From Gammaproteobacteria bacterium (lineage in GTDB: Bacteria > Pseudomonadota > Gammaproteobacteria > Acidithiobacillales > Acidithiobacillaceae), in contig JAMCRJ010000007.1 in NCBI GenBank assembly GCA_023381645.1, positions 1 to 55,614 on the forward strand: a stretch of 55,614 nucleotides of DNA. The letters run 5' to 3'. The position numbers and the translations under genes were made by a program. The notes under the pieces are model-generated. The model was not told the DNA's origin, searched no databases, and saw only the letters and a program-made list of their open reading frames with translations. Below, in pieces: positions 1,744 through 21,326 of the stretch (the stretch's first letter is position 1; the number at the start of each line of letters is the position of its first letter).

Positions 1744-1803
1744 ATGGAGTATGGTCTGCCCCAGATGGCTTGGAACCGTAGGGTTCTGGAAATATGCTGC
1801 TGA
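1744..1803 (+). CDS. possible 19-codon leader ORF ahead of the pigment operon
   Basis: A short ORF beginning MEYGLPQMAWN and ending EICC has a strong ribosome site, GGAGG at 1731-1735, eight bases before its ATG. Its stop overlaps the start of the deacetylase gene by ten bases. The deacetylase ATG at 1794 has no good ribosome site of its own, so translation of this small ORF could deliver ribosomes to it. The peptide resembles nothing I recognise. It could also be chance. Confidence 0.35.
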   Translation: MEYGLPQMAWNRRVLEICC

Positions 1804-2534
1804 CGTCGGTGTTATGGTCCCTAGCGGGTGCAGCAGCCTTGGGAAATGCCGTGTTGGGATCTCTGGTCATGTGTCCACGCTGCAAAATAATCAGCACCAA
1901 CCTGGTACGCCTGCCAAAAGCGGCCATAGGTCGCGGTGAGATAGCATTAACTTTTGACGACGGGCCGGATGTCCACGTAACCCCCCTGGTGCTGGATCAA
2001 CTGGATCTCTATGGCGCGAAAGCCAGCTTCTTTTGTATTGGCGAGAAAGTGGCCGCACAACCAGATTTGGTTGCGGAAATCGTGCGTCGCGGACATAGCA
2101 TAGAAAATCACAGCTATAATCACCGAAATCTATTTGCATTTAGTGGTATAAAGAAACTAAAAATGGAAGTCGTTGCCACGCAACAGGCTATCCATTCCGC
2201 GAATAACGGCATCAGCTCCAGGTTTTTTCGTGCCCCATTTGGCTTTCGCAGTCCATGGTTGGGTGGTGTCTTGCGCCAGACCCATATGCAGCATGTGGCC
2301 TGGACCAGGCGCGGCTATGACGCTGTTTGTCGTAATCCCGATGTGGTGCTCTGTCGCCTCGTCCACAATCTGTCTGCCGGTGACATTTTGTTGATGCACG
2401 ATGGAGGATCGGCACGTACACGTAATGGCCAGCCGGTTGTACTTGAGGTATTGCCCCGGCTATTGGAACGGTGCGCGAGCCACGGACTGCGCGGTGTGTC
2501 TTTGCCAATGGCGCTCAGTAATGCGCAATTATAA
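1794..2534 (+). CDS. polysaccharide deacetylase family protein (NodB domain)
   Basis: The protein has 246 residues with an N-terminal hydrophobic anchor (about residues 1-28) followed by a carbohydrate esterase family 4 domain. Visible NodB motifs are TFDDGPD (D55, D56), the metal-binding HSIENHSYNH (H106, H110), RAPFG (146-150) and LMHDGG (H202). These are the catalytic aspartate and metal ligands of metal-dependent N- or O-deacetylases acting on surface sugars. It is the first gene of a five-gene plus-strand operon and lies 90 bases before the halogenase-like gene. A deacetylase beside a GT2 and acyltransferases suggests that the polyene is joined to an amino sugar or other glycan, which is an inference. 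Confidence 0.88.
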   Translation: MLLTSVLWSLAGAAALGNAVLGSLVMCPRCKIISTNLVRLPKAAIGRGEIALTFDDGPDVHVTPLVLDQLDLYGAKASFFCIGEKVAAQPDLVAEIVRRGHSIENHSYNHRNLFAFSGIKKLKMEVVATQQAIHSANNGISSRFFRAPFGFRSPWLGGVLRQTHMQHVAWTRRGYDAVCRNPDVVLCRLVHNLSAGDILLMHDGGSARTRNGQPVVLEVLPRLLERCASHGLRGVSLPMALSNAQL

Positions 2535-2624
2535 AAATCCCGTCCCTGCTTGCGGATAGGGTTGTCGACGCGCACGCCGTCGGCGCAAATGTTTCGTGAA
2601 AAAATTAAAATGGAGCAGATCATA

Positions 2625-3944
2625 ATGGGAAAAGATGAAATAACCACTTCGGCTCCGGCAACGCAAATCTGTGACGTCCTGGTGATCGGCGGGGGGCCGG
2701 CGGGCTCCACGATCAGTGCGCTACTGGCAGGGCGGGGCTACCAGGTGACTGTTCTGGAAAAGATGCACCATCCCCGCTTTCATATCGGTGAATCGCTACT
2801 TCCGGCCAATTTACCCTTATTGCAGGAATTGGGTGTTGCGGAGGAAATCCGGCGCATCGGCATGGAAAAATGGGGGGCAGAGTTCAATTCACCTTACCAT
2901 GCAGAGAAGATGCAGACCTTTTCTTTTGCCGACGCATGGGATAAATCCATGCCGATGGCCTATCAGGTGCGGCGCTCGGAATTCGACGAGATCCTCATTC
3001 GCAACGCCGGGGCAAAGGGCGCCAGGGTGATGGAAGGCTGCCGTGCCAACGCCGTGGAGTTCTTGCCGGATAACGCCGGGGCGCTCGTCCTTGCGCAGCA
3101 CGAAGATGGCCGCCAGGAAACCTGGCGGGCACGCTTCCTGGTGGATGCATCCGGCCGCGATACGTTCCTGGGTAATCGTTTCAAATATAAGCGCCGCAAC
3201 CCCAAGCATAATGGCTCCGCCCTCTATGCGCATTTTCGCGGTGCCCAGCGCCTTGACGGCAAGGAAGAAGGGAATATTTCGTTATTCTGGTTTGAGCACG
3301 GGTGGTTCTGGTTTATTCCCCTCGCGGACGGGACGACCAGTGTAGGGGCCGTGGTGTGGCCGTACTACCTCAAATCCAGAAGCAAACCCGTAAACGAGTT
3401 TTTTCAGGAAACCATCGAAATGTGCCCTGCCCTCGCCGCACGGTTGGTGGATGCCCAGCGCACTACCGATGTCGAGGCCACCGGCAACTACTCCTATGCC
3501 TGCGATCAAACCCATGGGCCCAACTATCTGCTGCTGGGTGATGCATTCGCTTTCATCGACCCGGTTTTTTCTTCGGGGGTCATGCTGGCGATGCAAAGCG
3601 CATTCATCGGCGCCGAGACCATCGACACGTGCCTGCGTGAGCCGCAGCGCGCCGCCAGGGCGCTCAGGGATTTTGATCGCCGGGTGCGCCACGGCGGCAA
3701 GGTCTTTTCCTGGTATATTTATCACATCAGCCAGCCCGCCATGCGCGACATGTTTATGCGCTCGTGTAACGTGCTGAGGGCCAGAGAGGCGGTACTCTCG
3801 GTCCTTGCCGGAGATATTTTCAGGAAGACGCCGATTTGGCCCTCTCTTGCCGTCTTTAAGGGTATTTATTACTTGTCTTCCCTGCGTCATGCACGTCGTT
3901 CATGGGCAGCCTGGAGGCGGCGTAAAGAAGATATACGAGTATAG
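2625..3944 (+). CDS. FAD-dependent halogenase-like oxidoreductase of the aryl polyene locus
   Basis: This is a 439-residue flavoprotein of the tryptophan-halogenase / geranylgeranyl-reductase superfamily. The FAD Rossmann motif GGGPAG is at 22-27, followed by the HIGESLLP segment typical of flavin halogenases. The halogenase signature WxWxIP is present as WFWFIP (227-232). K82, in EKWGAEF, lies in a segment that may correspond to the lysine that forms chloramine in PrnA-type enzymes; that alignment is by eye only. The second FAD motif, GDAFAFIDPVFSSG, follows. I chose ATG 2625 because GGAG lies nine bases upstream; ATG 2610 is an alternative. Xanthomonas pigment clusters encode a similar protein, and xanthomonadins are brominated, so this is a plausible ring halogenase. 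A monooxygenase or reductase role cannot be excluded. Confidence 0.85.
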   Translation: MGKDEITTSAPATQICDVLVIGGGPAGSTISALLAGRGYQVTVLEKMHHPRFHIGESLLPANLPLLQELGVAEEIRRIGMEKWGAEFNSPYHAEKMQTFSFADAWDKSMPMAYQVRRSEFDEILIRNAGAKGARVMEGCRANAVEFLPDNAGALVLAQHEDGRQETWRARFLVDASGRDTFLGNRFKYKRRNPKHNGSALYAHFRGAQRLDGKEEGNISLFWFEHGWFWFIPLADGTTSVGAVVWPYYLKSRSKPVNEFFQETIEMCPALAARLVDAQRTTDVEATGNYSYACDQTHGPNYLLLGDAFAFIDPVFSSGVMLAMQSAFIGAETIDTCLREPQRAARALRDFDRRVRHGGKVFSWYIYHISQPAMRDMFMRSCNVLRAREAVLSVLAGDIFRKTPIWPSLAVFKGIYYLSSLRHARRSWAAWRRRKEDIRV

Positions 3945-3946
3945 CG

Positions 3947-5020
3947 ATGACGCCAAGAGCGAACGCCTTGCTTACTGATGCGGGAGAACTTTATTTTTCT
4001 TATGCCCGTCCTGCCGATGACGGGTTGCCGTCACTATCTAGGCAGGAAGGTTTGCTGGGAATCGTCACCTTCCAAACCGAGTTTGTTGGAGAAGGGGATG
4101 GTGCCAGGCCTGAGGGAATATTACAGATACCGTTATCCGGCCGGGGAGATGATCTATGTGAAATATGGAAGACCACGCAACCGGTGGTTGCCGGGACGTT
4201 TGGTGATATTACCTACCGTTGCAGCCGCGACTTTTTGTTTGGCGGCATCACCGTGGCCGTAGCCGACCTTCCAGCAGGCAATCATGGTTTGATTCACCCC
4301 CCTATACAGACCGCCGCCAAACTCGCGTATCAGCAGATATTCAGCCTGCTGGATCGCCACGGGTACCCGGGCCTGCTGCGTCTTTGGAATTTTGTGCCGG
4401 ACATCAACGGGGTTAGCCATGGTCTTGAACACTATCGTCAATTTAATATAGGTCGCCAGGATGCGTTCCTTGCCCACAGTCGCCTTCCGTCGAGGCAAAA
4501 CATCCCCGCAGCCAGCGCATTGGGCTCCGTCGATGGACCGCTGGTCGTGTACTTTCTTGCGGCACGGCGTAACTCGGTGGCCGTTGAAAATCCCAGGCAG
4601 ATCAGCGCCTACCATTACCCGCAAGAATACGGGCCAAGCAGCCCGACCTTTTCTCGTGCCGGGTGGGTTGATCTAGGGCAACAAAAAATTCTCTTCATTT
4701 CCGGAACGGCCAGCATCATAGGGCATCAAACCCGGCATGGCGGGAATATAGCAGCGCAAACACGCGAAAGCATGGCGAATATCGCCGCCGTCGTCGCAGA
4801 GACAAATCGTGTCGCGGCTGGATCCCCATATGACCTCAACGACCTTTCCTACAAGGTTTATTTGCGGCAGTTCACGGATCTGCCGATCGTTCGGGCCGAA
4901 CTGGATCGTCTTGTTACGCCAAAGGCTCCGGTATTTTATCTTCAGGCTGATATCTGCCGAGCAGATCTTCTGGTAGAAATTGAGGCAACCGCGGGTGTAT
5001 TCCATGGTGGTATGGCATGA
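3947..5020 (+). CDS. chorismatase / hydroxybenzoate synthase (XanB2/Hyg5 type)
   Basis: The 357-residue protein matches the FkbO/Hyg5/XanB2 chorismatase family. Diagnostic segments in order are RLWNFVPDING, LEHYRQFNIGR, PAASALG, VVYFLAAR, VENPRQISAYHYPQEYGP and LFISGTASIIGH, then a conserved TRES segment. XanB2 of Xanthomonas splits chorismate into pyruvate plus 3- and 4-hydroxybenzoate, and these feed xanthomonadin and ubiquinone. Here it would supply the aryl starter unit for the polyene. Its start lies two bases after the halogenase stop, and its own stop overlaps the next gene's ATG, so it is tightly co-translated. Whether 3- or 4-hydroxybenzoate is the product cannot be told by eye. Confidence 0.9.
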   Translation: MTPRANALLTDAGELYFSYARPADDGLPSLSRQEGLLGIVTFQTEFVGEGDGARPEGILQIPLSGRGDDLCEIWKTTQPVVAGTFGDITYRCSRDFLFGGITVAVADLPAGNHGLIHPPIQTAAKLAYQQIFSLLDRHGYPGLLRLWNFVPDINGVSHGLEHYRQFNIGRQDAFLAHSRLPSRQNIPAASALGSVDGPLVVYFLAARRNSVAVENPRQISAYHYPQEYGPSSPTFSRAGWVDLGQQKILFISGTASIIGHQTRHGGNIAAQTRESMANIAAVVAETNRVAAGSPYDLNDLSYKVYLRQFTDLPIVRAELDRLVTPKAPVFYLQADICRADLLVEIEATAGVFHGGMA

Positions 5021-5817
5021 GCCAAGCCCAGGGATCGGGCATTTCTGGTATATTGCGTACGCTGCGGGAATATCTCGCCTTCTATTGCGGACTGGGACTG
5101 TTGGCGAGCGTCAGCCTCCTGTGGTCCGTGCTGGCCCTGCCATTGAGCCTCGTACTGCCCAGGAAATGGAAAAAACGGACGGGACGACTGGTTATTACCA
5201 TGGGCTTCAGAACGTACCTGCGGGCCTTATCCATTATGGGGGCCTGCCGTTTTGACGTGAAGGCGCTGGATGCTCTCCAGGGCGAATCGCCCATGATCAT
5301 CGCGCCCAATCACCCTTCGCTGCTGGATGCGCTGATGGTGATTTCCCGCTTGCCCAATCTGGCGTGCATCATGAAGTCAGAGTTGATGGATAACGTATTT
5401 TTTGGCGCGGGCGCCCGTTTGGCTGGCTATATCCGCAATGATTCGTTACGCGGTATGGTCTACCTTGCGGTGGAAGACCTGCGCAGCGGCAGTCATTTGC
5501 TGCTCTTCCCGGAAGGCACCCGGAGCAACCGTCTTCCCATCGGGACCGTACGCGGTAGCATTGCCCTGATTGCCAAGGAGGCTGGGGTGCCTATCCAAAC
5601 CGTTTTAATCGAAACCGACTCGGCATTCCTGACCAAGGGCTGGCCTTTTTTTCGCAAGCCATCCATGCCCGTTCATTATCGAATCTGTCTCGGGCAGCGC
5701 TTTGATCCGCCGACCGACGTGCGCGGCTTCACCGCGGAGCTGGAAAGGTACTTCCAGTCGGCGCTGGCAGCAGCCCAGTTGCCGCCGCTCTCTTCAACGG
5801 GCGCTCATGCGCCGTGA
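5017..5817 (+). CDS. 1-acyl-glycerol-3-phosphate acyltransferase family protein (PlsC-like)
   Basis: The protein has 266 residues with an N-terminal membrane segment (about 19-48). The HxxxxD catalytic motif is present as NHPSLLD (H99, D104), and the second block as FPEGTRS near residue 163. PlsC-fold enzymes move acyl groups from ACP or CoA to a glycerol or lipid acceptor at the inner membrane. In aryl polyene clusters this class is thought to attach the finished polyene to its lipid anchor. The ATG overlaps the chorismatase TGA (ATGA), and the stop overlaps the next gene's GTG. Confidence 0.88.
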   Translation: MSQAQGSGISGILRTLREYLAFYCGLGLLASVSLLWSVLALPLSLVLPRKWKKRTGRLVITMGFRTYLRALSIMGACRFDVKALDALQGESPMIIAPNHPSLLDALMVISRLPNLACIMKSELMDNVFFGAGARLAGYIRNDSLRGMVYLAVEDLRSGSHLLLFPEGTRSNRLPIGTVRGSIALIAKEAGVPIQTVLIETDSAFLTKGWPFFRKPSMPVHYRICLGQRFDPPTDVRGFTAELERYFQSALAAAQLPPLSSTGAHAP

Positions 5818-6575
5818 GCGAGGCGTCCACTACTCGCCTGTTGCTGATCCCTAGCTACAATCCTGGTCAAAAGGTATATGAAACCGTAGCATTGGCACGG
5901 CAGCAGTGGAACCCCGTATGGATCGTGGTGGATGGCAGCACCGACGGAACCGCTGCAGGGCTGGAGGCGCTGGCCGCCAAAGATAGCGGGTTACGCGTTT
6001 TTCAACGCACCAGTAATCAGGGTAAGGGCGCGGCCGTACTTTTTGGTCTGGATCAGGCCGCCTCACAGGGTTACACCCATGTGCTGACGATGGATTCCGA
6101 CGGACAGCATCCCATGGAGGCCATTCCCGCGTTTATGGCAGCATCCCTGCAAAATCCGGATGCCATGATCCTCGGGGTCCCGGTCTTCGATGCCAGCGCT
6201 CCAACCCTGCGGGTAATAGGCCGCAGGGTATCCAACTGGTGGGCCAACCTGGAGACGCTGCGGGGAGGCATTGGTGATTCCCTGTTTGGTTTTCGCGTCT
6301 ATCCCATCGCGCCGTTGCGGCAACTAATGCACTCACAACGCTGGATGCGGCGCTTCGATTTCGATCCGGAGGCGGCGGTGCGTATGTCCTGGCGTGGTGT
6401 CAGAATTATCAACATGCCAGCAAAGGTCCGCTATTTCCGTGCCGATGAGGGTGGAGTATCCCATTTCCGCTATCTGCGGGACAACGTGCTGCTTACCTGG
6501 ATGCATACTCGCCTGTTCTTCGGTTTTCTGGTTCGTTTGCCCGTATTGTTGTTGCGTTACTGGTCAGGGCGGTAA
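5814..6575 (+). CDS. family 2 glycosyltransferase
   Basis: The 253-residue GT-A fold transferase is most like the dolichyl-phosphate-mannose-synthase branch. It has an N-terminal PSYNPG motif, VDGSTDGT for nucleotide binding, NQGKGAAV, and the DxD-type metal site MDSDGQHP. The C-terminus is hydrophobic (LFFGFLVRLPVLLL), suggesting membrane attachment. Translation starts at GTG 5814, overlapping the acyltransferase stop (GTGA). It ends the plus-strand operon and converges on the antiporter gene, with seven bases between the two stops. Aryl polyene clusters regularly carry a glycosyltransferase of this type. The sugar and the acceptor are unknown. Confidence 0.9.
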   Translation: MSEASTTRLLLIPSYNPGQKVYETVALARQQWNPVWIVVDGSTDGTAAGLEALAAKDSGLRVFQRTSNQGKGAAVLFGLDQAASQGYTHVLTMDSDGQHPMEAIPAFMAASLQNPDAMILGVPVFDASAPTLRVIGRRVSNWWANLETLRGGIGDSLFGFRVYPIAPLRQLMHSQRWMRRFDFDPEAAVRMSWRGVRIINMPAKVRYFRADEGGVSHFRYLRDNVLLTWMHTRLFFGFLVRLPVLLLRYWSGR

Positions 6576-6582
6576 TCCGGGG

Positions 6583-7902
6583 TCAAACGGTTTTGCGACC
6601 GCTCGGCATGGGAACGGGGGAGGGCAGTTGTACCCCGGCCTGGGGTAACCAGGCACGGAGAAAAGGTGTCGTGATGATGGTGCTGAAGATGGCCATGATC
6701 ACGAGCATGGTGAAAACCTGCTGGGATATGGCACCCAGATCATATCCTACATTGATGACGATCAACTCCATTAATGCGCGGGTATTCATCATGATGCCCA
6801 TAACCTTGGCCTGATGGTGGTTCAAGCCGGCGATCCATGCCGCCCCATATGCACCGCCGAACTTGCCCGCCGTCGCAAGAAATAAGATCAATCCGCACCA
6901 ACCCCAGAGTGACGCGCTATCCAATCCGCCAATATTGGTACGCAAGCCCGTATAAGTGAAGAAAATCGGGAGAAAGAAGACCAGCACAAAGGGGGAGACC
7001 CGCTCATTCCACGCCTCCACGAATTCATCCGCGTCATGGAGGATGACGCCCATGATGAAGCCGCCAAAGATCGTAAAAATGCCCAACGAAGAGGTGACCA
7101 GTCCGGAAACGAATATGCTGACCAGAATGACTCCCAACAAATGCGGAGTCAGTTTGCTTCCCGTGCTGAAGCGCCGGATCATCCATTTCATCAGCGGCCG
7201 GATGCCAGATATCCAGATGACGATGAAAGCGAATACTAAAAAAACCTTGATGGCAAAGGCGATCGCCTCAAAATGGGACAGCGCCAGAGCCGTCACCAGC
7301 GCGAGCAACAACCAGCCGACGACGTCGTTGATTGCCGCCGCACTGATGGCGATGACTCCAAGTCGGGATCTGGTCATACCGAATTCCATCATGATGCGGC
7401 CAAGGATGGGTACGGCGGTGATGGAAAACGCGGTAGCGATAAATAGCGCCGATGTCCACTGATTGGCTTGTGGGGAGAGTTTGGGCGCGCTGATCAGGGC
7501 GAACCCCAGACCAAGGACGAATGGTACCAGCATACTTGCTGTTGCCACCCATAACACCGCATTCCGGTTTGCTTTTTCTTTCAGGTGGGAAAAATCGAAT
7601 TCCAGACCGATCTGAAACATCAACAGGATAAGGCCCAGTTGGGAAAGGGCATCTAGGGGGCCAGCAGGAATCGAATGAAAAATATAGTGGAAGGCATCGG
7701 GCATCAGCAGGCCGAGCAGCGACGGACCCAGCACGATTCCGGCGATGATTTCGCCAACCACCGCCGCCTGGCCGATTCTGGCGGCGATTTCTCCACCCAG
7801 GCGCGCAGCCAGTATAATGACGCTGAGCTGCAGCAATGTGAAAAAGATCAGCAGCTCGGACTTCTGTGCAGGCAGATCGAAAACATGATTAAGAATGCTC
7901 AT
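6583..7902 (-). CDS. CPA2-family cation:proton antiporter
   Basis: The 439-residue integral membrane protein has roughly twelve hydrophobic segments, typical of the Na+/H+ exchanger domain (KefB/NapA-like). It includes EIIAGIVLGPSLLG near residue 51 and ISAAAINDVVGW, where N192-D193 occupies the ion-binding pair position. There is no C-terminal TrkA-N/RCK regulatory domain, so this is the short form. It is the last gene of the long minus-strand pigment series, 15 bases after fabG. An antiporter is not a core aryl polyene gene, so its role here is unclear; pH or ion homeostasis in an acidophile is possible. Confidence 0.9.
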   Translation of the reverse strand: MSILNHVFDLPAQKSELLIFFTLLQLSVIILAARLGGEIAARIGQAAVVGEIIAGIVLGPSLLGLLMPDAFHYIFHSIPAGPLDALSQLGLILLMFQIGLEFDFSHLKEKANRNAVLWVATASMLVPFVLGLGFALISAPKLSPQANQWTSALFIATAFSITAVPILGRIMMEFGMTRSRLGVIAISAAAINDVVGWLLLALVTALALSHFEAIAFAIKVFLVFAFIVIWISGIRPLMKWMIRRFSTGSKLTPHLLGVILVSIFVSGLVTSSLGIFTIFGGFIMGVILHDADEFVEAWNERVSPFVLVFFLPIFFTYTGLRTNIGGLDSASLWGWCGLILFLATAGKFGGAYGAAWIAGLNHHQAKVMGIMMNTRALMELIVINVGYDLGAISQQVFTMLVIMAIFSTIITTPFLRAWLPQAGVQLPSPVPMPSGRKTV

Positions 7903-7917
7903 GGAAGGTTTCCAGGT

Positions 7918-8640
7918 TCATGCCATGGCGCCATTGATGGAAATGATCTGGCCACTGATGTAGGCGGCTTGTTCCGAGGCAAGAAACCCAACCAGATCGG
8001 CCACTTCCTCGGCCCGCCCGGCCCGCTTCATTGGCACGATTTGCGCGATGGTGTCGGTCGCGAAGGCATCCGCGCTCATGTCCGTGGCGATGATGCCAGG
8101 TGCTACGGCGTTGACGGTAATCCCGCGGCTGGCGACCTCCAGTGCCAGGGACCTGGTGGCCGCATGCAGCGCACCTTTGGCCGCAGAATAGTTGACTTGG
8201 CCGCGATTACCCGTTAGTGCGGCTACCGAGGTGATATTGATGATGCGTCCCCAGCGAGTGCGGATCATGGGCATAAGTAGGGCCTGTGTTACATGGAAGA
8301 AACCATTCAGCGATACGTCTATTACGCCCTGCCATTGTCGCGCACTGAGGGCCGGGAAGACCGCATCGTCATGAATGCCGGCATTGTTGACCAGGACTTG
8401 GATAGGCCCGGCTTCGAGCTCATCCTGCAAGGCCGCAGTGGTAGCCTGTGCATCGGTGACGTCGAAAGCCAACAAGGCTGCATCGCCACCCGCGGCGACG
8501 ATAGAGTCTGCGAGAACCTGGGCTTTCTCTGGGTTGCGATGGGTATGGATAATGACCTGGAGGCCATCTGCGGCGAGTTTTTTGCAGATGGCGGCACCAA
8601 TGCCGCCACTACCTCCGGTGACCAGGGCGCGCTTAGGCAT
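7918..8640 (-). CDS. 3-oxoacyl-ACP reductase (FabG/ApeQ-like)
   Basis: This is a 240-residue short-chain dehydrogenase. The NADP(H) motif GGSGGIG is at 9-15, the NNAG motif is present, and the catalytic set N112, S138, Y151, K155 (YSAAK) is complete. It reduces the 3-keto group after each condensation in polyene elongation. The start is ATG 8640, overlapping the preceding dehydratase gene by eight bases; a longer reading upstream would run through the dehydratase and is rejected. Together with KS/CLF and ApeP it forms the elongation module. Confidence 0.93.
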   Translation of the reverse strand: MPKRALVTGGSGGIGAAICKKLAADGLQVIIHTHRNPEKAQVLADSIVAAGGDAALLAFDVTDAQATTAALQDELEAGPIQVLVNNAGIHDDAVFPALSARQWQGVIDVSLNGFFHVTQALLMPMIRTRWGRIINITSVAALTGNRGQVNYSAAKGALHAATRSLALEVASRGITVNAVAPGIIATDMSADAFATDTIAQIVPMKRAGRAEEVADLVGFLASEQAAYISGQIISINGAMA

Positions 8641-9133
8641 GCGGCTCCTCCCGAATGCCCGCAAGTGGGGCAGCAGGGGAATGTCCTGCTGCAGACGGAT
8701 TGGTGCCCAGTAGAAGTGCCGCACGGCCGTCCAGCAGCACGCGGCCCTGGCCCAGAACGGCGAAGCGGTATAATAGATTGTTTTTGTCGGCCAGCTTTTC
8801 AGCCGTAATCGTGAGGTCGCCGTCGATATCGTCGAGGCGCGATACGCGCAGGACAACGTTGCGCACACTGATGAGATAGCCTAATGGGGCCACGTGCCCC
8901 TCTCCGGTTGTGGGGCACAATAAGGCGCCATGTACGGCCATGGTCTGTGCCGCATATTCAATACCGCAGGCGGCACCGAGCCGCCCGTGGGCGCGTAGCG
9001 GCAACGTTTCCCATCGGTGGCTGGTGGCCGTGCAGGTAATGATGTTTTCGTTCCATCGCTCTACGGCATCGAGCAGATGCATGCCCCCCTGGTGCGGTAT
9101 TTGTCCTGCAATCCACCGGCGGTCTAGCTGCAT
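8633..9133 (-). CDS. ApeP-like 3-hydroxyacyl-ACP dehydratase
   Basis: The 166-residue hot-dog fold protein carries the ApeP-type motif PHQGGMHLLD near the N-terminus, where FabZ would have its catalytic histidine segment. A central AACGIEYAAQTMAVHG helix follows. ApeP is one of two dehydratases in the E. coli aryl polyene pathway and removes water to form the conjugated double bonds. It overlaps the chain-length factor gene upstream by ten bases and fabG downstream by eight, which implies strict co-translation. Confidence 0.85.
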   Translation of the reverse strand: MQLDRRWIAGQIPHQGGMHLLDAVERWNENIITCTATSHRWETLPLRAHGRLGAACGIEYAAQTMAVHGALLCPTTGEGHVAPLGYLISVRNVVLRVSRLDDIDGDLTITAEKLADKNNLLYRFAVLGQGRVLLDGRAALLLGTNPSAAGHSPAAPLAGIREEPHA

Positions 9134-9939: not shown

Positions 9940-9951
9940 GATGTCATTTCG

Positions 9952-11145: not shown

Positions 11146-11149
11146 GTGT

Positions 11150-11436: not shown

Positions 11437-11555
11437 TATTAAAGTGGAACCGGGCGGGCACCTCTGTCCTCCTGCTGGAGGCGCTGGATCGTACCGCCCA
11501 GGGCGTATCGCCACCTCATGCGCGATTAAACATAAAGCAATGGAGACTATCAAAT

Positions 11556-11822
11556 ATGTACAGCCTTACGCCCCAGGAACTGGAGTTAAGTGCTTTAATA
11601 ATAGCGGCACTGAATCTCCCCGTGGGTCCGCAGGACATTGATCCTGAAGCACCATTATATGGTGGAACATTGGGACTTGATTCCATTGATATTCTGGAGA
11701 TATCCATGGTCATAGGAAAAAAATACGGATTAATAATATCAAGCGACAATGACAGCAAGGTGGAAATATTTAGTTGTTTGCGCAATCTCTGCACTTATGT
11801 GCAGGCGCATAGGTCCAACTAG
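11556..11822 (+). CDS. acyl carrier protein
   Basis: The 88-residue ACP carries the phosphopantetheine attachment motif GLDSID, with Ser43 as the expected carrier residue. GGAGA lies nine bases before ATG 11556. It would hold the aryl starter and the growing chain. Unlike the rest of the elongation genes it lies on the plus strand, diverging from the ketosynthase gene and converging on the MMPL gene. It is the only ACP in the window, whereas E. coli-type aryl polyene clusters have two and the Xanthomonas cluster one. Confidence 0.9.
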   Translation: MYSLTPQELELSALIIAALNLPVGPQDIDPEAPLYGGTLGLDSIDILEISMVIGKKYGLIISSDNDSKVEIFSCLRNLCTYVQAHRSN

Positions 11823-11894
11823 AAAATCCTTTCCGCGCACGCCGTAAGCGGGAGCACCTGGCGGTTGGTCCGGGGCGCTTTGGGAAGCTAGGGA

Positions 11895-14249
11895 TCAAGC
11901 GGTCGTGTGTTGGGAAAAACTGGCGGAGAATAACAATGCCAGAACAACGCCCGGCGCGACGGCGGCACCGATGGCCTGTAGTACTGGGACCCCGGAAAAA
12001 GCGAGTGGCCCAAATCCCATGATGGTGGTGATGTTGGCGATGACCAGGGAGGCGAGCGTACGCGGCGCGATCTCCCCGTGGACCTGCCTGTCGCCCTGGT
12101 CAAAAAAGAGTGCGTAGTTTGATCCGATGGCGACAATCAGCATCAGCCCGATCAGATTCATAATATTTAGTTCATAACCGAGCAATACAAGTCCGGCGGA
12201 TACCGTCAGGACGGCCGCAATCAACGGTAGCAGTATCCTGAAGACGCGCATCGGGGAGCGCATTACGAACAATAACAGCAAGGCAATGAGGGCGACACCG
12301 GATAATGACAGTTTAATCCCATTTATCAGATAATTTTTATACAATTGATTCGATGTGCCGGACAAGTCGATGAGCATGGCACCCGTGATATGGTGCCGGA
12401 CAAGGCTGGCGCGCACGCGCTGCGCGTCCACTATGCCTGAAGCCGGTGCTTTGAGCGGTAGAATGGCGTCCCATCCGTTGCCGTGGCGGATAAGCATGCT
12501 GTTTACCACCATCTCGATACTGGTGCCGCGCAGGTCGGCAAGGGTTAGGGGCGTGCGCGTGCGCTGCGCCTCGGATTCCTTGATGAATGGCGTGAACAGG
12601 GAAGCTCTTACCGGTAGCCCAAGCAGGGCTTCACGCAAACGTCTTTCCAGCACATCTTTTGGTGGGATTGCCGCTTGCCGCTCCTGTTGCAATGTGACGC
12701 TCGGCAGGTACCGGGCGGGACTCTCATAGCCGGCAATGACGTGATTTTCTACCAACCCCTGTAGCGCATTGCCGGTCTTTTCGGCCGCAGCCAACGCAGC
12801 GTTGACGGTGGGTGCGGAAACGACGACCAGATAACCGCCGTCGGATACACCCAAGTCAGCACGCATTTGCGTATAGAGTCGTTGCGCTGCCGCCGGAACG
12901 GGGCTCAGCGCAGACAGGTCGTAGTTCCAAATCTTGTCGCGATGGCTGACGAGCACGGCGCTCGCCGCTATCAGTAGCAACACGACGCCAGGCCGCAGGG
13001 TGGAAAGAGTTCGTGTCAAGCGAAGCAGATATTCGCCAATACTGCTTAAATCCCGTGATTTAAAATTGCCAGGCAGCAGGGCTGGTAATACCAGTCGGGT
13101 AACAATTGCCGCAGTGAGAAGCCCGGCAATTGCATAAAGGCCGAGTTGTGCCAGCCCCGGCAAGTTCGAAAATAGCAGGCTGGCAAATCCGATGATCGAA
13201 GTGAGTACCCCTAATCTGATGGTCGGCCAGTACTTGCGTATCCATTCTTCACTACCTGTTGCGGATTGTCCAGACTGCACAAAAAAATAAATGGAATAAT
13301 CTACCGCTTCGCCAATTAACGCCGTTCCAAACCCCAGAGTGATATCGTAGACAACAGAGAAGCCCAGCGCTACTGCGGAAATTCCGATGATTACCCCGGA
13401 AAATACTGGTATGAGACCCAGAATAAGCACGATACCGGAGCGGTATACGAGCAATAACAGTATAATTATAAGCGTTATACTGATGGTAGACATCAACTCG
13501 GCTGCATGGACGATGGCGTCGCGGGAGGCCACCGAAATCACCCCGACGCCGGTCATCCTCAAGGTCGTGTTCGCGGCTACGGACCCCGCTTCCGACTTCG
13601 CAACGGCGAATGCCGTCTGTATGTCGTTGATCGCTGCCTGCTGGGCATTCATAGCGGAACCGGAAGCTCGGGTTTGCGCCAATATCAAGACACTTTTGCC
13701 GGAACGCGAGGACCACACTCCGTCGCGGGTCACCGGTCTCGCCCCGCTTCCCATGGATTGGATCATCTGCACTGTTGCCCCGGTAGGATCACCAGGGAGC
13801 AGCGACTGAACCATCTCTCCGCCTGGAGTGGCCAACATATCGATGGAATCGGCAATGGCGTTGTGTAGTCCGGCAACTGTAAAAAGTGTCGGGTTGACGG
13901 TGGGGCTCAACAAATAACGATGAGAAAAAATATATTGAAATATTCTGGTATCACCATTGCTGCTGCCATTGTTGATGGATAAAAATGCGGTGTTACCCTG
14001 AAGCTTCCGGACCAGTTCATTGGAGAGCTTGGCGCGTATGGCAGCATCACCGCCATCAATGCTGATCATAATTTGGCGTGATAGGATGCCCTGACGTAAT
14101 TGTTCGTTCAGGATCGCCTGCTGCGTGGTGGGTGACCGGGGCAGGAATTCCGAAAGACTTGCTGTGAATTTGGTGGTGCTGATCAATAAGCCACCGATAA
14201 GCAAAATAGCCAGCCATGTTGCAATGATGAAAACGCGGTTTTTCCTCAC
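11895..14249 (-). CDS. MMPL/RND-type exporter of the aryl polyene locus
   Basis: This is a 784-residue membrane protein with a duplicated RND topology: an N-terminal membrane helix (about 7-26), a periplasmic loop, a cluster of five to six helices (about 245-395), a second single helix and loop, and a final helix cluster after about residue 640. It belongs to the MMPL exporters found in aryl polyene loci, which probably move the lipid-linked pigment across the inner membrane. It starts at GTG 14249, overlapping the LolA-like stop (GTGA). The last bases converge on the ACP gene. Confidence 0.88.
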   Translation of the reverse strand: MRKNRVFIIATWLAILLIGGLLISTTKFTASLSEFLPRSPTTQQAILNEQLRQGILSRQIMISIDGGDAAIRAKLSNELVRKLQGNTAFLSINNGSSNGDTRIFQYIFSHRYLLSPTVNPTLFTVAGLHNAIADSIDMLATPGGEMVQSLLPGDPTGATVQMIQSMGSGARPVTRDGVWSSRSGKSVLILAQTRASGSAMNAQQAAINDIQTAFAVAKSEAGSVAANTTLRMTGVGVISVASRDAIVHAAELMSTISITLIIILLLLVYRSGIVLILGLIPVFSGVIIGISAVALGFSVVYDITLGFGTALIGEAVDYSIYFFVQSGQSATGSEEWIRKYWPTIRLGVLTSIIGFASLLFSNLPGLAQLGLYAIAGLLTAAIVTRLVLPALLPGNFKSRDLSSIGEYLLRLTRTLSTLRPGVVLLLIAASAVLVSHRDKIWNYDLSALSPVPAAAQRLYTQMRADLGVSDGGYLVVVSAPTVNAALAAAEKTGNALQGLVENHVIAGYESPARYLPSVTLQQERQAAIPPKDVLERRLREALLGLPVRASLFTPFIKESEAQRTRTPLTLADLRGTSIEMVVNSMLIRHGNGWDAILPLKAPASGIVDAQRVRASLVRHHITGAMLIDLSGTSNQLYKNYLINGIKLSLSGVALIALLLLFVMRSPMRVFRILLPLIAAVLTVSAGLVLLGYELNIMNLIGLMLIVAIGSNYALFFDQGDRQVHGEIAPRTLASLVIANITTIMGFGPLAFSGVPVLQAIGAAVAPGVVLALLFSASFSQHTTA

Positions 14250-14959
14250 GGCGTAGGTGACTTGGTGATGGTGATCAGGGAACGATCGCGATTCGTTTTC
14301 AATGTTTCGATGCTGGTTACCGTATCGTTGCTACCGTTGACTTGAATATATTGAACCATGTCCGCCAACTTTTTTTGTCTGGGCACCATCGTCAGGGTCC
14401 ATTTGCCCTCGCTGCCGTTCAAAGAAAGACGAAAGAATTGCTCCAGCATCTGCTGGTTCCCGGTCAATGTACCACGTATGCTATCGATAAACGCCAGTAA
14501 TTCCGGATGATCCTGCAGGTGGATATTCTGGTGGTCGATGGTGAGCACGTCGCCTTGTACGAGCATAACCTCATTTTTTGGCTTGAGGGTGTGCATCTCC
14601 AAGCTATCCGGGGCTATGAAACGTAGTCTGCCGGATGATTCTATGGGTTTTTCCAGCATGGTCAGGAATTTTTCCTCGACGAATGTGGCGCGCCCGGGTT
14701 GGGTATGTGCCAAGGACTGCATCAGATGATCGATATTCCATTCCGATGCCTGAGCTGCAGCCGTCAGCATCGTACTTAGGCCCAGGAGCATCAGCAGGAT
14801 CGCCGCCCCGGAATGGAAGGAGGTCCGGCCAGAAGTTGCGACGAGTGGGGGTGTGCTGCGTGATGTCGCCTGGTCCTTAAGAAACGCCTTTTCCAGATGT
14901 GCCACGAGTATTCCTACCCAGGTATCCAGCAGTTGCGGGAGCACTTTAGATATGGCCAT
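14246..14959 (-). CDS. LolA-like outer-membrane lipoprotein carrier
   Basis: From about residue 70 the protein reads like the LolA/LolB fold of pigment clusters: HTQPGRATFVEEKFL, then SSGRLRFIAPDSLEM and later MVLVQGD-type strands. A signal-like hydrophobic stretch with an AQA-type cleavage site sits at about 50-72, unusually far from the N-terminus. The first 50 residues (MAISKVLPQLLDTWVG and onward) are not part of a normal LolA. However, AGGGAG lies close upstream of ATG 14959, which supports that start. It likely shuttles the polyene lipid to the outer membrane together with the MMPL protein. Confidence 0.75.
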   Translation of the reverse strand: MAISKVLPQLLDTWVGILVAHLEKAFLKDQATSRSTPPLVATSGRTSFHSGAAILLMLLGLSTMLTAAAQASEWNIDHLMQSLAHTQPGRATFVEEKFLTMLEKPIESSGRLRFIAPDSLEMHTLKPKNEVMLVQGDVLTIDHQNIHLQDHPELLAFIDSIRGTLTGNQQMLEQFFRLSLNGSEGKWTLTMVPRQKKLADMVQYIQVNGSNDTVTSIETLKTNRDRSLITITKSPTP

Positions 14960-14976
14960 CAGACTACTCCCTAACC

Positions 14977-15897
14977 TTATTGCCAGAAGTCAAAAAAATT
15001 AAACCAGTTATAAGGTGCCATATGACAATACTTATCCAACAGGCGGACGTACTTTTCCATCGCCCGGTGCATGACTGCTTCCCGCTCGTCTCGTTCGACC
15101 TCAGTGAAATCAGCCAATTGTTCAAGAAAAATTTCATATTTCCCCGGTCCGGTATGCAGCCCGACCATAAAGAAAATCGGTCTGCGCAAGATCACCGCCA
15201 TCCGGAAGGGCCCGCTGGGCCAAAAGGCGGGCTTGCCCAAAAAGGTAATGGACTGCACCTTCTCCTTACCAAAAGAGCGATCACCCAGCAGACCAACCAA
15301 TGCGCCGTTTTCCAGTTCTTCTTGAACGCGGATCATCGAATCCATACGGCCAGGGGGTATGATATTTTGTTCGGCCATCGGATTGATGGCTGAAAGCATC
15401 GCATTTAAACGCTGGGCGTTTTGCTCATACATCACCATGACCACGCGGGGACCAAGGTGCCGCTGGCCAACGCCCCTTAGCACCTCAAAACTGCCGAGAT
15501 GTGCCCCAAGAAGCAATATCCCTTGTCCGGCGGTAACGGCCGTGTCGATAGCCTCTGGCTGGTGTACATGTATGTCAAAGAGATCGAAACGATTGTTGAG
15601 CAAATCAATGCGGTCATGGATCGTTGCGGAGAATGTTAGAAAATGATGATATATATGCCAGATATGTGCGGGTTGGCCGAGCACCCGCGTGAGGTACGCT
15701 CGAGATGATCGTCTGGCCGTTGGCGCAAACAAGAGAAAGTATCCGGCGATCAGATGCAATATAACACGGGCCTGGCGGCGGCCTAGCTTCATGGAAATCC
15801 AGGTGATTACCCGTAGCATGGCCATGCTTCCGCGCTCCGGATACTGTGCCCAGGACGGCTGGTTAGGGGGTATGGACGCCTGGTCTGTGGGGAGCAT
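14977..15897 (-). CDS. lysophospholipid acyltransferase family protein (LpxL/HtrB-like)
   Basis: The 306-residue protein has the LpxL/HtrB acyltransferase architecture: an N-terminal WAQYPERGS segment, a membrane helix, the HxxxxE-type catalytic motif HLGSFE, and a conserved LGDRSF block. Aryl polyene clusters contain such an enzyme besides the PlsC type, and it may add a fatty acid to the lipid anchor. Its ATG overlaps the stop of the ApeI-like gene (TGATG), so expression is coupled. Confidence 0.87.
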   Translation of the reverse strand: MLPTDQASIPPNQPSWAQYPERGSMAMLRVITWISMKLGRRQARVILHLIAGYFLLFAPTARRSSRAYLTRVLGQPAHIWHIYHHFLTFSATIHDRIDLLNNRFDLFDIHVHQPEAIDTAVTAGQGILLLGAHLGSFEVLRGVGQRHLGPRVVMVMYEQNAQRLNAMLSAINPMAEQNIIPPGRMDSMIRVQEELENGALVGLLGDRSFGKEKVQSITFLGKPAFWPSGPFRMAVILRRPIFFMVGLHTGPGKYEIFLEQLADFTEVERDEREAVMHRAMEKYVRLLDKYCHMAPYNWFNFFDFWQ

Positions 15898-16217
15898 CAG
15901 CAGGTTGAGGTCTTTGCGGCAGGAGATAGATCACCAGCGGCTATCCTGCGGTTATTCGCGTGGATCTCAAAGGCGATGGACGCATCTGCTCTTGTATCGA
16001 AACATAGTGTCAGCACCTCCCCGGGGGATGCAGGGCTGTAAAATTTGGCCATGGTAATATGGCCTCCTGTCATCATCGCTTGCCCAGTCGTAGACTCCAC
16101 CATATGAATGACCTCGTCAATAAGCATTACGCCGGGAACGATGGGATGCCCCGGGAAATGACCAGCGAAGACCGGATGTTGCGCCGGGATGCTGAAGAAA
16201 ACTTCATGGTGTGCCAG
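15897..16217 (-). CDS. ApeI-like 3-hydroxyacyl-ACP dehydratase
   Basis: This FabA/FabZ hot-dog protein has the catalytic block HPVFAGHFPGHPIVPGVML near its N-terminus. ApeI is the second dehydratase of the pathway. The homologous part begins at about LAHHEVFF, where no ATG, GTG or TTG exists. The best ribosome site, GAGGAG, lies seven bases before a CTG at 16217, which I take as the start (106 residues). ATGs at 16307 or 16382 would give an unrelated N-terminal extension overlapping the ligase gene by 100 bases or more. Non-canonical initiation is therefore likely but unproven. Confidence 0.78.
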   Translation of the reverse strand: MAHHEVFFSIPAQHPVFAGHFPGHPIVPGVMLIDEVIHMVESTTGQAMMTGGHITMAKFYSPASPGEVLTLCFDTRADASIAFEIHANNRRIAAGDLSPAAKTSTC

Positions 16218-17565
16218 GATTGTTCTCCTCTTTATGATGGTGCGCCGTGACCAGCAACTGAAGCGCTTCGCGCGGTAATTTTCCGGTATTATTACGCGGT
16301 AGCGCATCCACAATCCGTAATGGCCGGGGAAGAAATGCCGGATCGATGCGCTCACGCAGCTTGGCGTAAATCGAATGAGCATCTACTCCCGGTGCCACAA
16401 CAAATGCAATCAAGCGCTTTACGCTGCCCGCCGCACCGTCGTCGGGCATAAAAAATACACCATCCTGTACTTCTGGGATGGAATTAAGCTGATGGTTTAG
16501 ATAAGCCAGAGAGCTGCGTTTGCCCGCTATATTGACAAGGTCAGCGGTTCGGCCATGAAGAAGAAAACGCTCATCGTTAATAATCTCCAGTCTGTCGCTG
16601 AGTTCCGTTGCTTGTTCCACATGCCCACCGCTTGCCCACACGCGCCCAAGTTGCGACGTCAAGCGCAGTTCCGGCAATAACGACCATTCATCGGTTTCTG
16701 CACTGCGCCGGGTGGCAATCTGGCCCGTTTCAGTGGACCCGTAGATTTCTTGCAGAGGGGCATCGAAGCAGGTTTCCGCCTCTCTTGCCAGGTCTTGGGT
16801 CAATGGAGCCGTAGCGGAAATCAACAAGTCGGCAGGTGGCAAAGGAGAACCCATACCCAGTAAAGCGCGGAGGTGAATTGGCGTGCTCACCAGCAATCGT
16901 GGGCGTGGCAGCAATGAAAGTTCAGCGCAAATATCCGCAGGGAAAAAATATTGCGGCGCACTGAGGGTACCTCCACATTGTAAAACGATCAGTATGGTTG
17001 ATTCGAAGCCGTACATATGCTGTGGTGGAACGGTACCAAGCACCGCATGGGTACGGCCATCAAGTAAGCCCAGACGCTGGGCTTCGGTGCGGACGCTTCC
17101 TACCAGCGCGCCCCAGGTTTTCAGATGGGGAATCGGGCTTCCGGTGGATCCGGAAGTGAATACATAACTTACCGGTAGGGTTTCCGGAAGGAGGGGGATG
17201 GGCAGATTGTGATTTGCCGCCGGTACGGGAGGTCCTTCAGGTAAGGAAAGTTGCGGTAGATCTATATCGTTGTCACCCTCGCTGAGGCAAAACACATCCG
17301 GAGCGAAGCGGACCATCTGGCTGACGGTTTCGTGTGTATATGTAGACGGCAACAGGCTTATTTTATTGGCAGTCATGGCCGCAGCAAGACCTACCATGAA
17401 GCGGTAACGGTCACGGCAAATGTTAAGAACATGTTTCCCGGGAAGAAGTATGGCACGAAGCCGTGCTACATCCGCTAAGAATTGATGCACGGTAATCGCT
17501 TCGCCATGACGAAATGCTACGATATCGCTCGCGGATTGATGGGTCATCAAGGGGAGGCGGTTCAT
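16204..17565 (-). CDS. AMP-binding acyl-ACP/CoA ligase for hydroxybenzoate
   Basis: This is a 453-residue member of the adenylate-forming superfamily. The ATP-binding motif is FTSGSTGSPIPHLKTW, followed by QEIYGSTETG, LHGRTADLVNIAGKR and the C-terminal lysine segment RNNTGKLPR. In aryl polyene and xanthomonadin clusters this class (ApeH/XanL) activates hydroxybenzoate and loads it on the ACP. It fits the chorismatase encoded in the opposite operon. The stop overlaps the ApeI-like gene. No clear ribosome site precedes ATG 17565. Confidence 0.88.
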   Translation of the reverse strand: MNRLPLMTHQSASDIVAFRHGEAITVHQFLADVARLRAILLPGKHVLNICRDRYRFMVGLAAAMTANKISLLPSTYTHETVSQMVRFAPDVFCLSEGDNDIDLPQLSLPEGPPVPAANHNLPIPLLPETLPVSYVFTSGSTGSPIPHLKTWGALVGSVRTEAQRLGLLDGRTHAVLGTVPPQHMYGFESTILIVLQCGGTLSAPQYFFPADICAELSLLPRPRLLVSTPIHLRALLGMGSPLPPADLLISATAPLTQDLAREAETCFDAPLQEIYGSTETGQIATRRSAETDEWSLLPELRLTSQLGRVWASGGHVEQATELSDRLEIINDERFLLHGRTADLVNIAGKRSSLAYLNHQLNSIPEVQDGVFFMPDDGAAGSVKRLIAFVVAPGVDAHSIYAKLRERIDPAFLPRPLRIVDALPRNNTGKLPREALQLLVTAHHHKEENNPGTP

Positions 17566-17592
17566 GGCCGGAGGTTGCCCATTGACTGAATG

Positions 17593-18333
17593 TTACCGTA
17601 GTGGCCTGGGTTTGCTATTGCGCGATTGCTGTTTGCTCTTCGCGGTCTTGCCGGAATAATGGAAATAGGCACGAAGTCCCTCCACCATTCCGGAACGCTC
17701 GCCTACAGGGATGGTGCGACAGCGAACTATGTATTCAGCAAACAACAGGAATGCCACCAGCGTCAGGGAAATGGTATTGGTCAACAGAAATAATAAATGA
17801 TGTGGCGCAAATATAAAAATAATCAGGGGCAGGGCTGTCATTGTGGCGAAGAGAAATGTCCAGGCCGTTGTCACATGTCGAGTATAGAGCGCCACCTGTT
17901 CGCTCAGAGGCCCATGAACCAAGTCGGCAATTCGCGATATCATGGGGGTGCGCCCAGGAAGCAAAGTGATACCAAATACCATAGCCAATAGTGCGAAAAT
18001 GCCACTCCTTTGAATCAGGTACGTCCAGTTTAGGTAGTGTACAAGGATGGTTTGGTAATGCCACAATGCTATACATCCAGCGATGATAGAGGCGAGGCCG
18101 ATAACTCTGTAACGCGTGCGCCACAATATAAATAAAAGAACAATAATGACGGGTGCGAAGGTGGACACCACTACCAATCCACCCGGGTGGGCCGAAGATA
18201 TCCCCCGGTAAGTGAGTATTTGGTAGCCGACAAAAATAAATAAGGAGAGCGCTACGCTCCAGTACTTCGCCAACCTGCTGGTTGTCAAATTCTGACAAAA
18301 TAGTTTAACGGTTTGGCTGCGCAGAAGTTTCAC
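17593..18333 (-). CDS. COG4648-type membrane protein (ApeG-like)
   Basis: The 246-residue protein has about six hydrophobic helices and a basic C-terminal tail (KTAKSKQQSRNSKPRPLR). It matches the COG4648 predicted membrane proteins that accompany the ligase gene in aryl polyene clusters; their function is unknown. It starts at GTG 18333 with AAGG eight bases upstream. It lies 27 bases ahead of the ligase gene in the same direction. Confidence 0.75.
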   Translation of the reverse strand: MKLLRSQTVKLFCQNLTTSRLAKYWSVALSLFIFVGYQILTYRGISSAHPGGLVVVSTFAPVIIVLLFILWRTRYRVIGLASIIAGCIALWHYQTILVHYLNWTYLIQRSGIFALLAMVFGITLLPGRTPMISRIADLVHGPLSEQVALYTRHVTTAWTFLFATMTALPLIIFIFAPHHLLFLLTNTISLTLVAFLLFAEYIVRCRTIPVGERSGMVEGLRAYFHYSGKTAKSKQQSRNSKPRPLR

Positions 18334-18483
18334 ATATCTTGCCTTCTCAATCGTAAAAATAGATGTCCGCTACCAGAATCTGCCGTTACTGGTTTTCTGT
18401 ATTTGGTTGTTGGTCGCTCAATTGATGTATTTCCCAGGGAAATGGATGAAGCGCAACCTGGAGCCGGATTTGTCTTGAAGCTG

Positions 18484-18816
18484 TTATTTTTGACTCTTTG
18501 TACTTCCTGTAACGGATGGCTTATTTCCCTTGGCTGCTTCCCAAAATCCGATGGCTCCTGCCTTCACCGCGTGACCGATATCAACCGCCTCATGGGCGAT
18601 GCCAAGCCCCACCGCCTTTCCCGCCTGGCCGATCTTGTGGACGGTTGAACCAACTGTCTGGCCCGCCTGCTCCGCTCCTTGTTTGAGACCTGTATTTTCT
18701 GCATGTGCTGTGTCCGGGGACAGGAGCGAAACCAGAAATACGCAGGCGTACGCCGGAATCACTGAGTTTACCATCTTTGCCTTGAGGCTGTTGTTCGTCA
18801 CCTTGTGTCCATGCAT
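18484..18816 (-). CDS. small secreted glycine/alanine-rich protein
   Basis: A 110-residue protein with a signal peptide whose hydrophobic core is VIPAYACVFLVSLLSP, ending in AHA at about residue 38-40. The mature part has GxxxG/A-type repeats (GAEQAGQTVGS, GQAGKAVGLG, AVKAGAIGFWEAAKG), like glycine-zipper or membrane-active peptides. I start it at the second ATG (18816) because AGGAG lies nine bases upstream. It heads the minus-strand pigment series, 150 bases before the ApeG-like gene, behind its own promoter. I do not recognise a family. Confidence 0.6.
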   Translation of the reverse strand: MHGHKVTNNSLKAKMVNSVIPAYACVFLVSLLSPDTAHAENTGLKQGAEQAGQTVGSTVHKIGQAGKAVGLGIAHEAVDIGHAVKAGAIGFWEAAKGNKPSVTGSTKSQK

Positions 18817-18843
18817 CGCATGCATCTCCTAACCATCTATGTA

Positions 18844-18873
18844 ATTCTACCCCAGAATTAGAGTTGCTTCCAA
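18844..18873 (-). promoter_or_regulatory. candidate promoter of the small secreted protein / ape series
   Basis: TTGGAA (18868-18873), an 18-base spacer and TAGAAT (18844-18849) lie about 30 bases upstream of the chosen ATG. The 15-mer TCTGGGGTAGAATTA spanning the -10 is identical to the one in front of the ACP gene, which suggests shared control of the two transcription units. Confidence 0.45.

Positions 18874-19072: not shown

Positions 19073-21326
<2,254 letters not shown>

Follow-up and report, generated by a model that had tools for sequence, protein, structure and literature searches.

Contig JAMCRJ010000007.1 carries a block of biosynthetic genes near its start, which raises the question of what an acidophilic bacterium would make with them and from which starter unit. 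The stretch analysed, hereafter the window, is 55,614 nt long, and its host genus is Acidithiobacillus. An earlier note on this DNA had read the block as a xanthomonadin-like, possibly halogenated aryl polyene locus of an acidophile. The 17 genes at 1794-18333 do very probably form a complete-looking aryl polyene cluster of the xanthomonadin/arcuflavin (arc) type with a hydroxybenzoate starter, as judged from their sequences. The acidophile genus, the class of the ketosynthase (KS) and its partner, and a chorismatase of the XanB2/Hyg5/FkbO family all agree with that reading. Our confidence covers the aryl polyene type and the hydroxybenzoate starter and does not extend to halogenation. Two parts of the earlier reading were not established, namely halogenation and a protection from metal-driven radicals.

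Gene content, protein families, catalytic residues, KS/partner class and conservation were observed here directly. The comparisons covered 17 Acidithiobacillus genomes (the genus genomes) and others, among them G018, G027 and G029 from the same family; the nearest genome compared was G001. A wider scan of genome contigs contributed the best 80 of 585 confirmed candidates, which comprise 3 Acidithiobacillus loci and 77 named non-Acidithiobacillus loci (hereafter the 77 named loci), many of them partial and none titled Xanthomonas.

Gene content and layout

The gene classes of the cluster are all present with open frames, as follows.

1794-2534, + strand: polysaccharide (N-acyl-sugar) deacetylase, arcN-like; PF01522, 90 bits
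2550-3944, + strand: FAD-dependent halogenase-like flavoprotein, arcA-like; PF04820, 95 bits; start probably internal, near residue 13-18
3947-5020, + strand: FkbO/Hyg5/XanB2-family chorismatase, arcB-like; TIGR04444, 241 bits (curated cut-off 325); Hyg5 (5ag3), 172 bits
5017-5817, + strand: PlsC-type acyltransferase, arcD-like; PF01553, 60 bits
5814-6575, + strand: GT2 glycosyltransferase, arcE-like; PF00535, 75 bits
6583-7902, - strand: CPA2-type Na+/H+ antiporter, arcG-like; PF00999, 186 bits
7918-8640, - strand: FabG-type ketoreductase, arcH-like; NF004200, 362 bits over residues 77-316 of a longer open reading frame (ORF)
8633-9133, - strand: ApeP-like dehydratase DH1, arcI-like; profile match to 6qsr_B only, 42 bits, E 5e-10
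9124-9939, - strand: truncated Cys-less KS partner, chain-length-factor-like, arcJ/ApeC-like; PF13723, 99 bits
9952-11145, - strand: KS, arcK/ApeO-like; PF02801/PF00109; Cys162-His292-His326
11556-11822, + strand: acyl carrier protein (ACP) with GLDS motif; PF00550, 28.5 bits; NF006617, 101 bits (cut-off 70, passed)
11895-14249, - strand: MMPL/RND-type exporter, arcP/ApeM-like; PF03176, 57 bits
14246-14959, - strand: LolA-like periplasmic carrier, arcQ/ApeL-like; PF19574, 60 bits; start probably near residue 52-57
14977-15897, - strand: LpxL-type acyltransferase, arcR-like; PF03279, 44 bits
15897-16307, - strand: FabZ/ApeI-like dehydratase DH2, arcS-like; PF07977, 30 bits; ApeI-like PF22818, 24 bits (cut-off 28.5, missed)
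16204-17565, - strand: AMP-dependent aryl ligase, arcT/ApeH-like; PF00501, 64 bits; TIGR02372, 120 bits (cut-off 335, missed)
17593-18333, - strand: membrane protein at the position of the hypothetical arcU; homologue in 44 of the 77 named loci
18484-18825, - strand: short secreted-looking 113-aa protein, probably a lineage-specific neighbour outside the pathway

The set contains the features of aryl polyene clusters, namely a KS with a Cys-less partner, two dehydratases, a ketoreductase, an ACP and an aryl ligase, together with genes for outer-membrane delivery (MMPL/RND exporter, LolA-like protein and acyltransferases). Every class named in the earlier note was found, and the deacetylase, the antiporter and the membrane protein are added to its list. 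Its span of 1794-18873 is narrowed to 1794-18333, without the 113-aa ORF, which adjoins the cluster in 7 of 12 other Acidithiobacillus-type loci (the other 5 being partial or differently arranged) and in 1 of the 77 named loci. The ketoreductase was taken as 7918-8640, a 316-aa ORF reaching 8868 having too early a start. For the membrane protein no Pfam, NCBIfam or PDB match was obtained; its homologues gave weak IspA/IspZ-like matches in some relatives only.

The block on the + strand (1794-6575) converges with the block on the - strand, roughly the two convergent operons previously described. The ACP gene, however, sits on the + strand amid the - block, where it faces the MMPL gene and diverges from the KS gene, and the layout is therefore not simply that of two convergent operons. 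The KS and ACP genes are separated by approximately 410 bases (11146-11555); this interval contains two short ORFs without Pfam or NCBIfam match, and is perhaps a two-way promoter region.

Class of the ketosynthase and its partner

Profiles of the KS (12 sequences) and of its partner (13 sequences) were run against solved structures. The KS profile scored 343 bits with 6qsp_A and 7f28_B, compared with 246 bits for the best other ketosynthase, and the partner profile matched 6qsp_B and 7f28_A only (E 0.001). We take 6qsp to be the ApeO:ApeC pair and 6qsr to be the ApeI:ApeP pair. ApeC is described as a chain length factor in complex with ApeO (PMC8253772).

All 92 aligned KS sequences have the triad Cys162/His292/His326. 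The partner, of 271 aa, consists of the N-terminal ketosynthase half only and has His141 in place of the KS cysteine, so that it is Cys-less, as had been noted before. Among the aligned partners of the window and 92 relatives, 92 of 93 carry Y, F, H, R or M at this position, and a single locus (L027) has C. As for the dehydratases, DH1 matched no Pfam or NCBIfam model, and the DH2 profile ranked 3esi first, 6qsr_A second and FabZ chains after these.

A KS tree was built from 70 rows: the window, 63 of the 91 KS sequences of relatives, two solved KS and four FabF, none of the rows being from Xanthomonas. The 13 Acidithiobacillus-type rows (the window and the 12 loci, including that of same-family G018) form one clade with a Shimodaira-Hasegawa-like approximate likelihood ratio (SH-aLRT) of 100, in a quick tree that carries a long-branch warning and has 23 of 67 inner branches open. 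This clade is nested in proteobacterial arc-type KS with the four FabF falling outside, and it persists after removal of the FabF rows. The earlier note had named a placement of KS and chain length factor outside the aryl polyene clades as the outcome that would speak against it; by profile and tree, KS and partner belong inside the aryl polyene class, on a sample without Xanthomonas sequences.

Chorismatase and starter unit

The chorismatase aligns with FkbO (153 bits) as well as with Hyg5, and its PDB matches include 5ag3 and 4bps. Its Gly253, Cys337 and Glu344 align with Gly240, Cys327 and the catalytic Glu334 of Hyg5, an enzyme that forms 3-hydroxybenzoate, and FkbO has Ala, Ala and Glu at these positions. 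Together with Ala191, these residues are identical in 38 relatives with a near-complete gene (93 loci searched, many partial). The CH-II signature residues and the catalytic Glu have been given for another member of the family (PMC7170507), whose numbering we shifted by an offset of 9, our own, to match that of Hyg5. The residues are consistent with formation of 3-hydroxybenzoate (3-HBA) and lack the FkbO signature, although a pure CH-II assignment does not hold. XanB2 and ArcB are reported to yield both 3-HBA and 4-hydroxybenzoate (4-HBA) (PMC3949708). The product of the window's enzyme is most likely 3-HBA, and a mixed product, as with XanB2, is likely.

UbiC (PF04345) scored over its cut-off in every one of the 17 genus genomes and in 28 of the 31 genomes searched. 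In E. coli, UbiC is said to feed the aryl polyene pathway with 4-HBA (PMC8253772). Since every genus genome has UbiC, 4-HBA should be available and the chorismatase would not be needed for ubiquinone; that it is kept besides UbiC speaks, we infer, for a 3-HBA starter.

Several observations weigh against an aryl polyene cluster with such a starter. The chorismatase stays below the cut-off of TIGR04444 and has Ala191, as do 38 of 38 relatives, at Hyg5 Gly173, where CH-II enzymes have Gly. The best solved match of DH2, 3esi, is an uncharacterised protein, and the deep branches of the KS tree are weak. A methyltransferase (arcM, apeB), a thioesterase (apeK) and a LolB-like gene (apeN) were not recognised among the 17 genes, and 6 of the 17 genus genomes lack the polyketide synthase (PKS) core.

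Halogenase-like flavoprotein

The nearest solved structures of the flavoprotein are the halogenases CndH (3e1t, 204 bits), 8zop (189 bits) and ChlB4 (183 bits), whereas the peptidyl-tryptophan dihydroxylase 7ctq scored 35 bits. It has GGGPAG from residue 47, W252xW254xI256P257, and a Lys107 that aligns with a Lys of CndH, 8zop and ChlB4; we take GxGxxG, WxWxIP and the catalytic Lys to be the motifs of flavin-dependent halogenases. In an alignment of 36 rows, counting rows with letters and the rest as gaps, Lys107 is found in 33 of 33 (3 gaps), and GGGPAG and WxWxIP in 32 of 32 (4 gaps). The NCBIfam scores are 195 bits for CmlS (cut-off 900) and 171 for QhpG (cut-off 240), both missed and separated by a small margin.

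The protein may halogenate the ring or the chain. Alternatively, it could be a hydroxylase, a cryptic or conditional halogenase, or a halogenase idle without bromide, and the pigment a nonhalogenated aryl polyene, a possibility to which we give somewhat less than an even chance. The family includes monooxygenases, as the QhpG score, not far below that of CmlS, illustrates. Furthermore, the cluster of Azoarcus sp. BH72 contains arcA, annotated as halogenase, and its pigment is C41H52O4, a nonbrominated aryl-heptaene (PMC3949708). A nonbrominated arcuflavin from a cluster with a halogenase gene means that presence of the gene is no proof of a halogenated product. Against this alternative stand the closeness of the solved halogenases and the conservation of all three motifs. 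In addition, gene and bromine go together in Xanthomonas, whose clusters have a halogenase gene and brominated pigments, and both are missing in Lysobacter as described (PMC3691225). The "possibly halogenated" of the earlier note thus keeps the support of intact motifs, and a halogenated product is not established, given that Azoarcus with the same type of gene makes a nonbrominated pigment.

Conservation and distribution

The loci of G001, G015 and G018 hold all 17 genes, arranged as in the window. The dN/dS of these genes is 0.10-0.35 against G015 and 0.11-0.39 against G018, which indicates purifying selection on every gene of the cluster. KS orthologues (70-97% identity) were found in 11 of the 17 genus genomes and in G018. 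The chorismatase and the halogenase-like gene occur in the same 11 genus genomes and in none of the 6 others, five of which are 100% complete and one (G016) 81%.

Outside the genus, the 77 named loci all hold KS and partner, 76 hold DH1, 72 the deacetylase and 67 the MMPL exporter, with the halogenase-like gene in 28 and the chorismatase in 26. When only the 46 named loci of at least 20 kb are counted, the halogenase-like gene is present in 24, the chorismatase in 22 and the two together in 16. The gene order is largely common to named betaproteobacteria, e.g. Sulfuriferula multivorans (L056). The deacetylase lies between MMPL and KS in all 66 named loci holding the three genes; in 9 of the 12 Acidithiobacillus-type loci its neighbour is the halogenase-like gene. 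Likewise, an inverted ACP gene lies between MMPL and KS in 9 of these 12, those not counted being partial or otherwise arranged. Of the 46 named loci that contain both an ACP and a KS gene, 37 have the two on the same strand.

Horizontal transfer from betaproteobacteria was considered and is not claimed. Transfer is suggested by the KS identity of 57-69% to the 77 named loci, compared with 51-54% to same-family G027 and G029, by the nesting of the KS among arc-type relatives, and by the G+C content of the cluster (0.553, against 0.595 in the rest of the window). On the other hand, a tree keeping the family together was not rejected in the approximately unbiased (AU) test (p 0.294), and the mean G+C of the best 80 of 585 loci is 0.636.

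Some Acidithiobacillus loci differ in detail. In G012 an insert of about 1.5 kb, which contains a 446-aa ORF, interrupts the LpxL-type acyltransferase gene (L015:14941-17431). G007 has the deacetylase, halogenase-like and chorismatase genes beside a HutZ-like gene, on a separate contig from the PKS block (L124, from 7964). G003 has an additional ORF between its chorismatase and PlsC-type acyltransferase genes (L021:4536-5021), about 160 aa long and with a lipoprotein-like start, and a gap of similar size is seen at that junction in G008, G009 and G014 and not in the window.

A role of the polyene mainly in iron oxidisers, against Fe-driven radicals, was weighed in the light of this distribution. 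We take a 489-aa gene heading the rusticyanin-linked operon of G015 to be Cyc2 from the make-up of that operon; the gene has no Pfam match and served as query. Among the genus genomes, homologues occur in 8 of the 11 with the cluster and in 1 of the 6 without it (Fisher two-sided 0.0498). The P value is borderline, however, and comes from related genomes that do not count as independent; for rusticyanin the figures are 6 of 11 and 1 of 6 (P 0.30). G005, G008 and G011 bear the cluster, and the Cyc2 query had no match in any of the three. Clusters of this kind are also present in many betaproteobacteria that are not known as acidophiles. The link with iron oxidation is thus weak on these genomes, and we regard a role mainly in iron oxidisers as unlikely.

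Other possible products and roles

An ester of the polyene with a dialkylresorcinol (DAR), of the kind found in arcuflavin and flexirubin, would fit a gene set that is closest to the arc type, and 16 of the 39 genomes in that study's Table S7 are reported to have DAR clusters (PMC3949708). No DAR-type gene was seen among the 17 cluster genes or the 20 further window ORFs scanned. As a proxy for DarA/DarB, KAS III C-terminal domains were searched in 13 genus genomes, 9 of them cluster-bearing (G014-G017 and the window's own genome lay outside this search). A single domain was found in 12 of the 13, and the two of G008 both lie some 2.5 kb away from a FabF match, so that a DarB-like enzyme is unlikely. 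A DAR ester is accordingly quite improbable.

Least credible of all is that the chorismatase mainly supplies 4-HBA for ubiquinone, as XanB2 partly does in Xanthomonas, a purpose to which the mixed products of XanB2 and ArcB (PMC3949708) would lend themselves and which we rejected because UbiC is present in all 17 genus genomes, with or without the cluster, and the chorismatase is absent from the six that lack the PKS.

Exchange of the chorismatase in G005 and G011

In G005 and G011 the KS is 83% identical to that of the window and the chorismatase only 41%. Their chorismatase genes (L017:18609-19652 and L018:18572-19600) group with those of same-family G027 and G029 and of the metagenome-assembled genome L043. 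Forcing the 11 Acidithiobacillus-type chorismatases into one clade was rejected (AU p 5e-5, log-likelihood 75 lower, 39 rows). By these phylogenetic criteria the starter enzyme has been exchanged in the two genomes while the PKS core stayed, which makes this a clean case of starter-enzyme replacement.

Proposed pathway

Based on the genes, and on characterised relatives for the individual reactions, the lipid anchor, the location and the antioxidant role, the following pathway is proposed. The chorismatase would convert chorismate to 3-hydroxybenzoate, which the ligase would activate for the ACP. KS and its Cys-less partner would extend this starter with malonyl units, and in each round FabG would reduce and the two dehydratases dehydrate, to give a conjugated 3-hydroxyphenyl-polyene acid. 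The two acyltransferases, the GT2 glycosyltransferase and the deacetylase would attach the polyene to a sugar-containing lipid, which the MMPL exporter and LolA would carry to the outer membrane, where it could quench light- and oxygen-derived radicals. Halogenation of ring or chain by the flavoprotein would be a further step.

Aryl polyenes are credited with protecting outer membranes against oxidants. An acidophile of oxygenated, Fe-rich acid would be a natural choice for a test of this protection, and within the genus, species that have the cluster could be compared with species that lack it. A more far-reaching proposal, which we put forward tentatively and think rather less likely than its opposite, is that Acidithiobacillus makes a halogenated (Br or Cl) 3-hydroxyphenyl-polyene outer-membrane glycolipid in strong acid, and that the starter enzyme is a module open to exchange, with the chorismatase of a distant lineage taking its place in part of the genus while the PKS core stayed. 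We know of no halometabolite from Acidithiobacillus, and a halogenated pigment would be one. If the whole proposal is true, it would be the first halometabolite and polyene pigment known to us from this chemolithoautotroph.

Neighbouring genes

A HutZ/HugZ-like protein is encoded beside the cluster at 428-949, likewise in the loci of G001, G015 and G012. Directly after the cluster, at 19274-25676, are F-type ATPase subunits (beta, a, alpha, gamma) in an order that presumably recalls the alternative N-ATPase. These are followed at 25771-35184 by a GH3-family protein, a penicillin-amidase family protein and a three-subunit molybdenum hydroxylase-like set.

Comparison with known systems

The cluster type and its wide spread have already been published, and no concept is changed by the present locus. 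In the open literature searched, with supplements and subscription journals outside the search, no report of an aryl polyene or xanthomonadin cluster in Acidithiobacillus was found, and the main text of a survey of acid mine drainage clusters (PMC9734747) contained no aryl polyene terms.

Some likeness is seen to the flexirubin clusters of Bacteroidetes. FabG scored 282 bits with the FlxB model (cut-off 340) and the LolA-like protein 61 bits with the LolA2 model NF053544 (cut-off 125), both missed; unlike the flexirubin system, the Acidithiobacillus locus has a chorismatase as starter enzyme and no DAR-type gene was seen in it. The ape cluster of E. coli CFT073 and Xenorhabdus shares the KS/chain-length-factor pair, two dehydratases, ligase, ketoreductase, LolA-like protein, RND exporter and acyltransferases (PMC8253772; 6qsp, 6qsr). 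It differs in that 4-HBA is predicted to come from UbiC in E. coli, in a gene table that lists no chorismatase, halogenase or antiporter, and in having a methyltransferase, a thioesterase and a third KS (PMC8253772).

The xanthomonadin cluster of Xanthomonas and its Lysobacter counterpart are likewise described as type II PKS systems with an unusual KS/chain-length-factor pair, two dehydratases, an outer-membrane carrier and exporters (PMC3691225), a comparison made by description of the genes and not by sequence identity. The halogenase gene is shared with Xanthomonas and is missing from the Lysobacter counterpart as described (PMC3691225), and a chorismatase of the XanB2 family is shared with Xanthomonas (PMC3949708).

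The closest likeness is to the arcuflavin (arc) genes of Azoarcus sp. BH72, a likeness that rests on annotation and not on BH72 sequences. The arc gene table, which includes the antiporter arcG, the deacetylase arcN and the halogenase arcA (PMC3949708), has an annotated counterpart for 16 of the 17 genes, the 17th being the membrane protein at the place of the hypothetical arcU. Thus both have a halogenase, chorismatase, acyltransferase, glycosyltransferase, antiporter, ketoreductase, dehydratase, N-terminal KS half and KS, and further a polysaccharide deacetylase, exporter, LolA, acyltransferase, dehydratase, ligase, hypothetical protein and ACP (PMC3949708). In BH72 these genes are divided between two unlinked loci and are accompanied by a methyltransferase, an MltA-interacting protein, a two-component system and DAR genes (PMC3949708). 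In the window, by contrast, they form one locus in which those extra genes were not recognised, the ACP gene is inverted and the deacetylase gene lies beside the halogenase-like gene.

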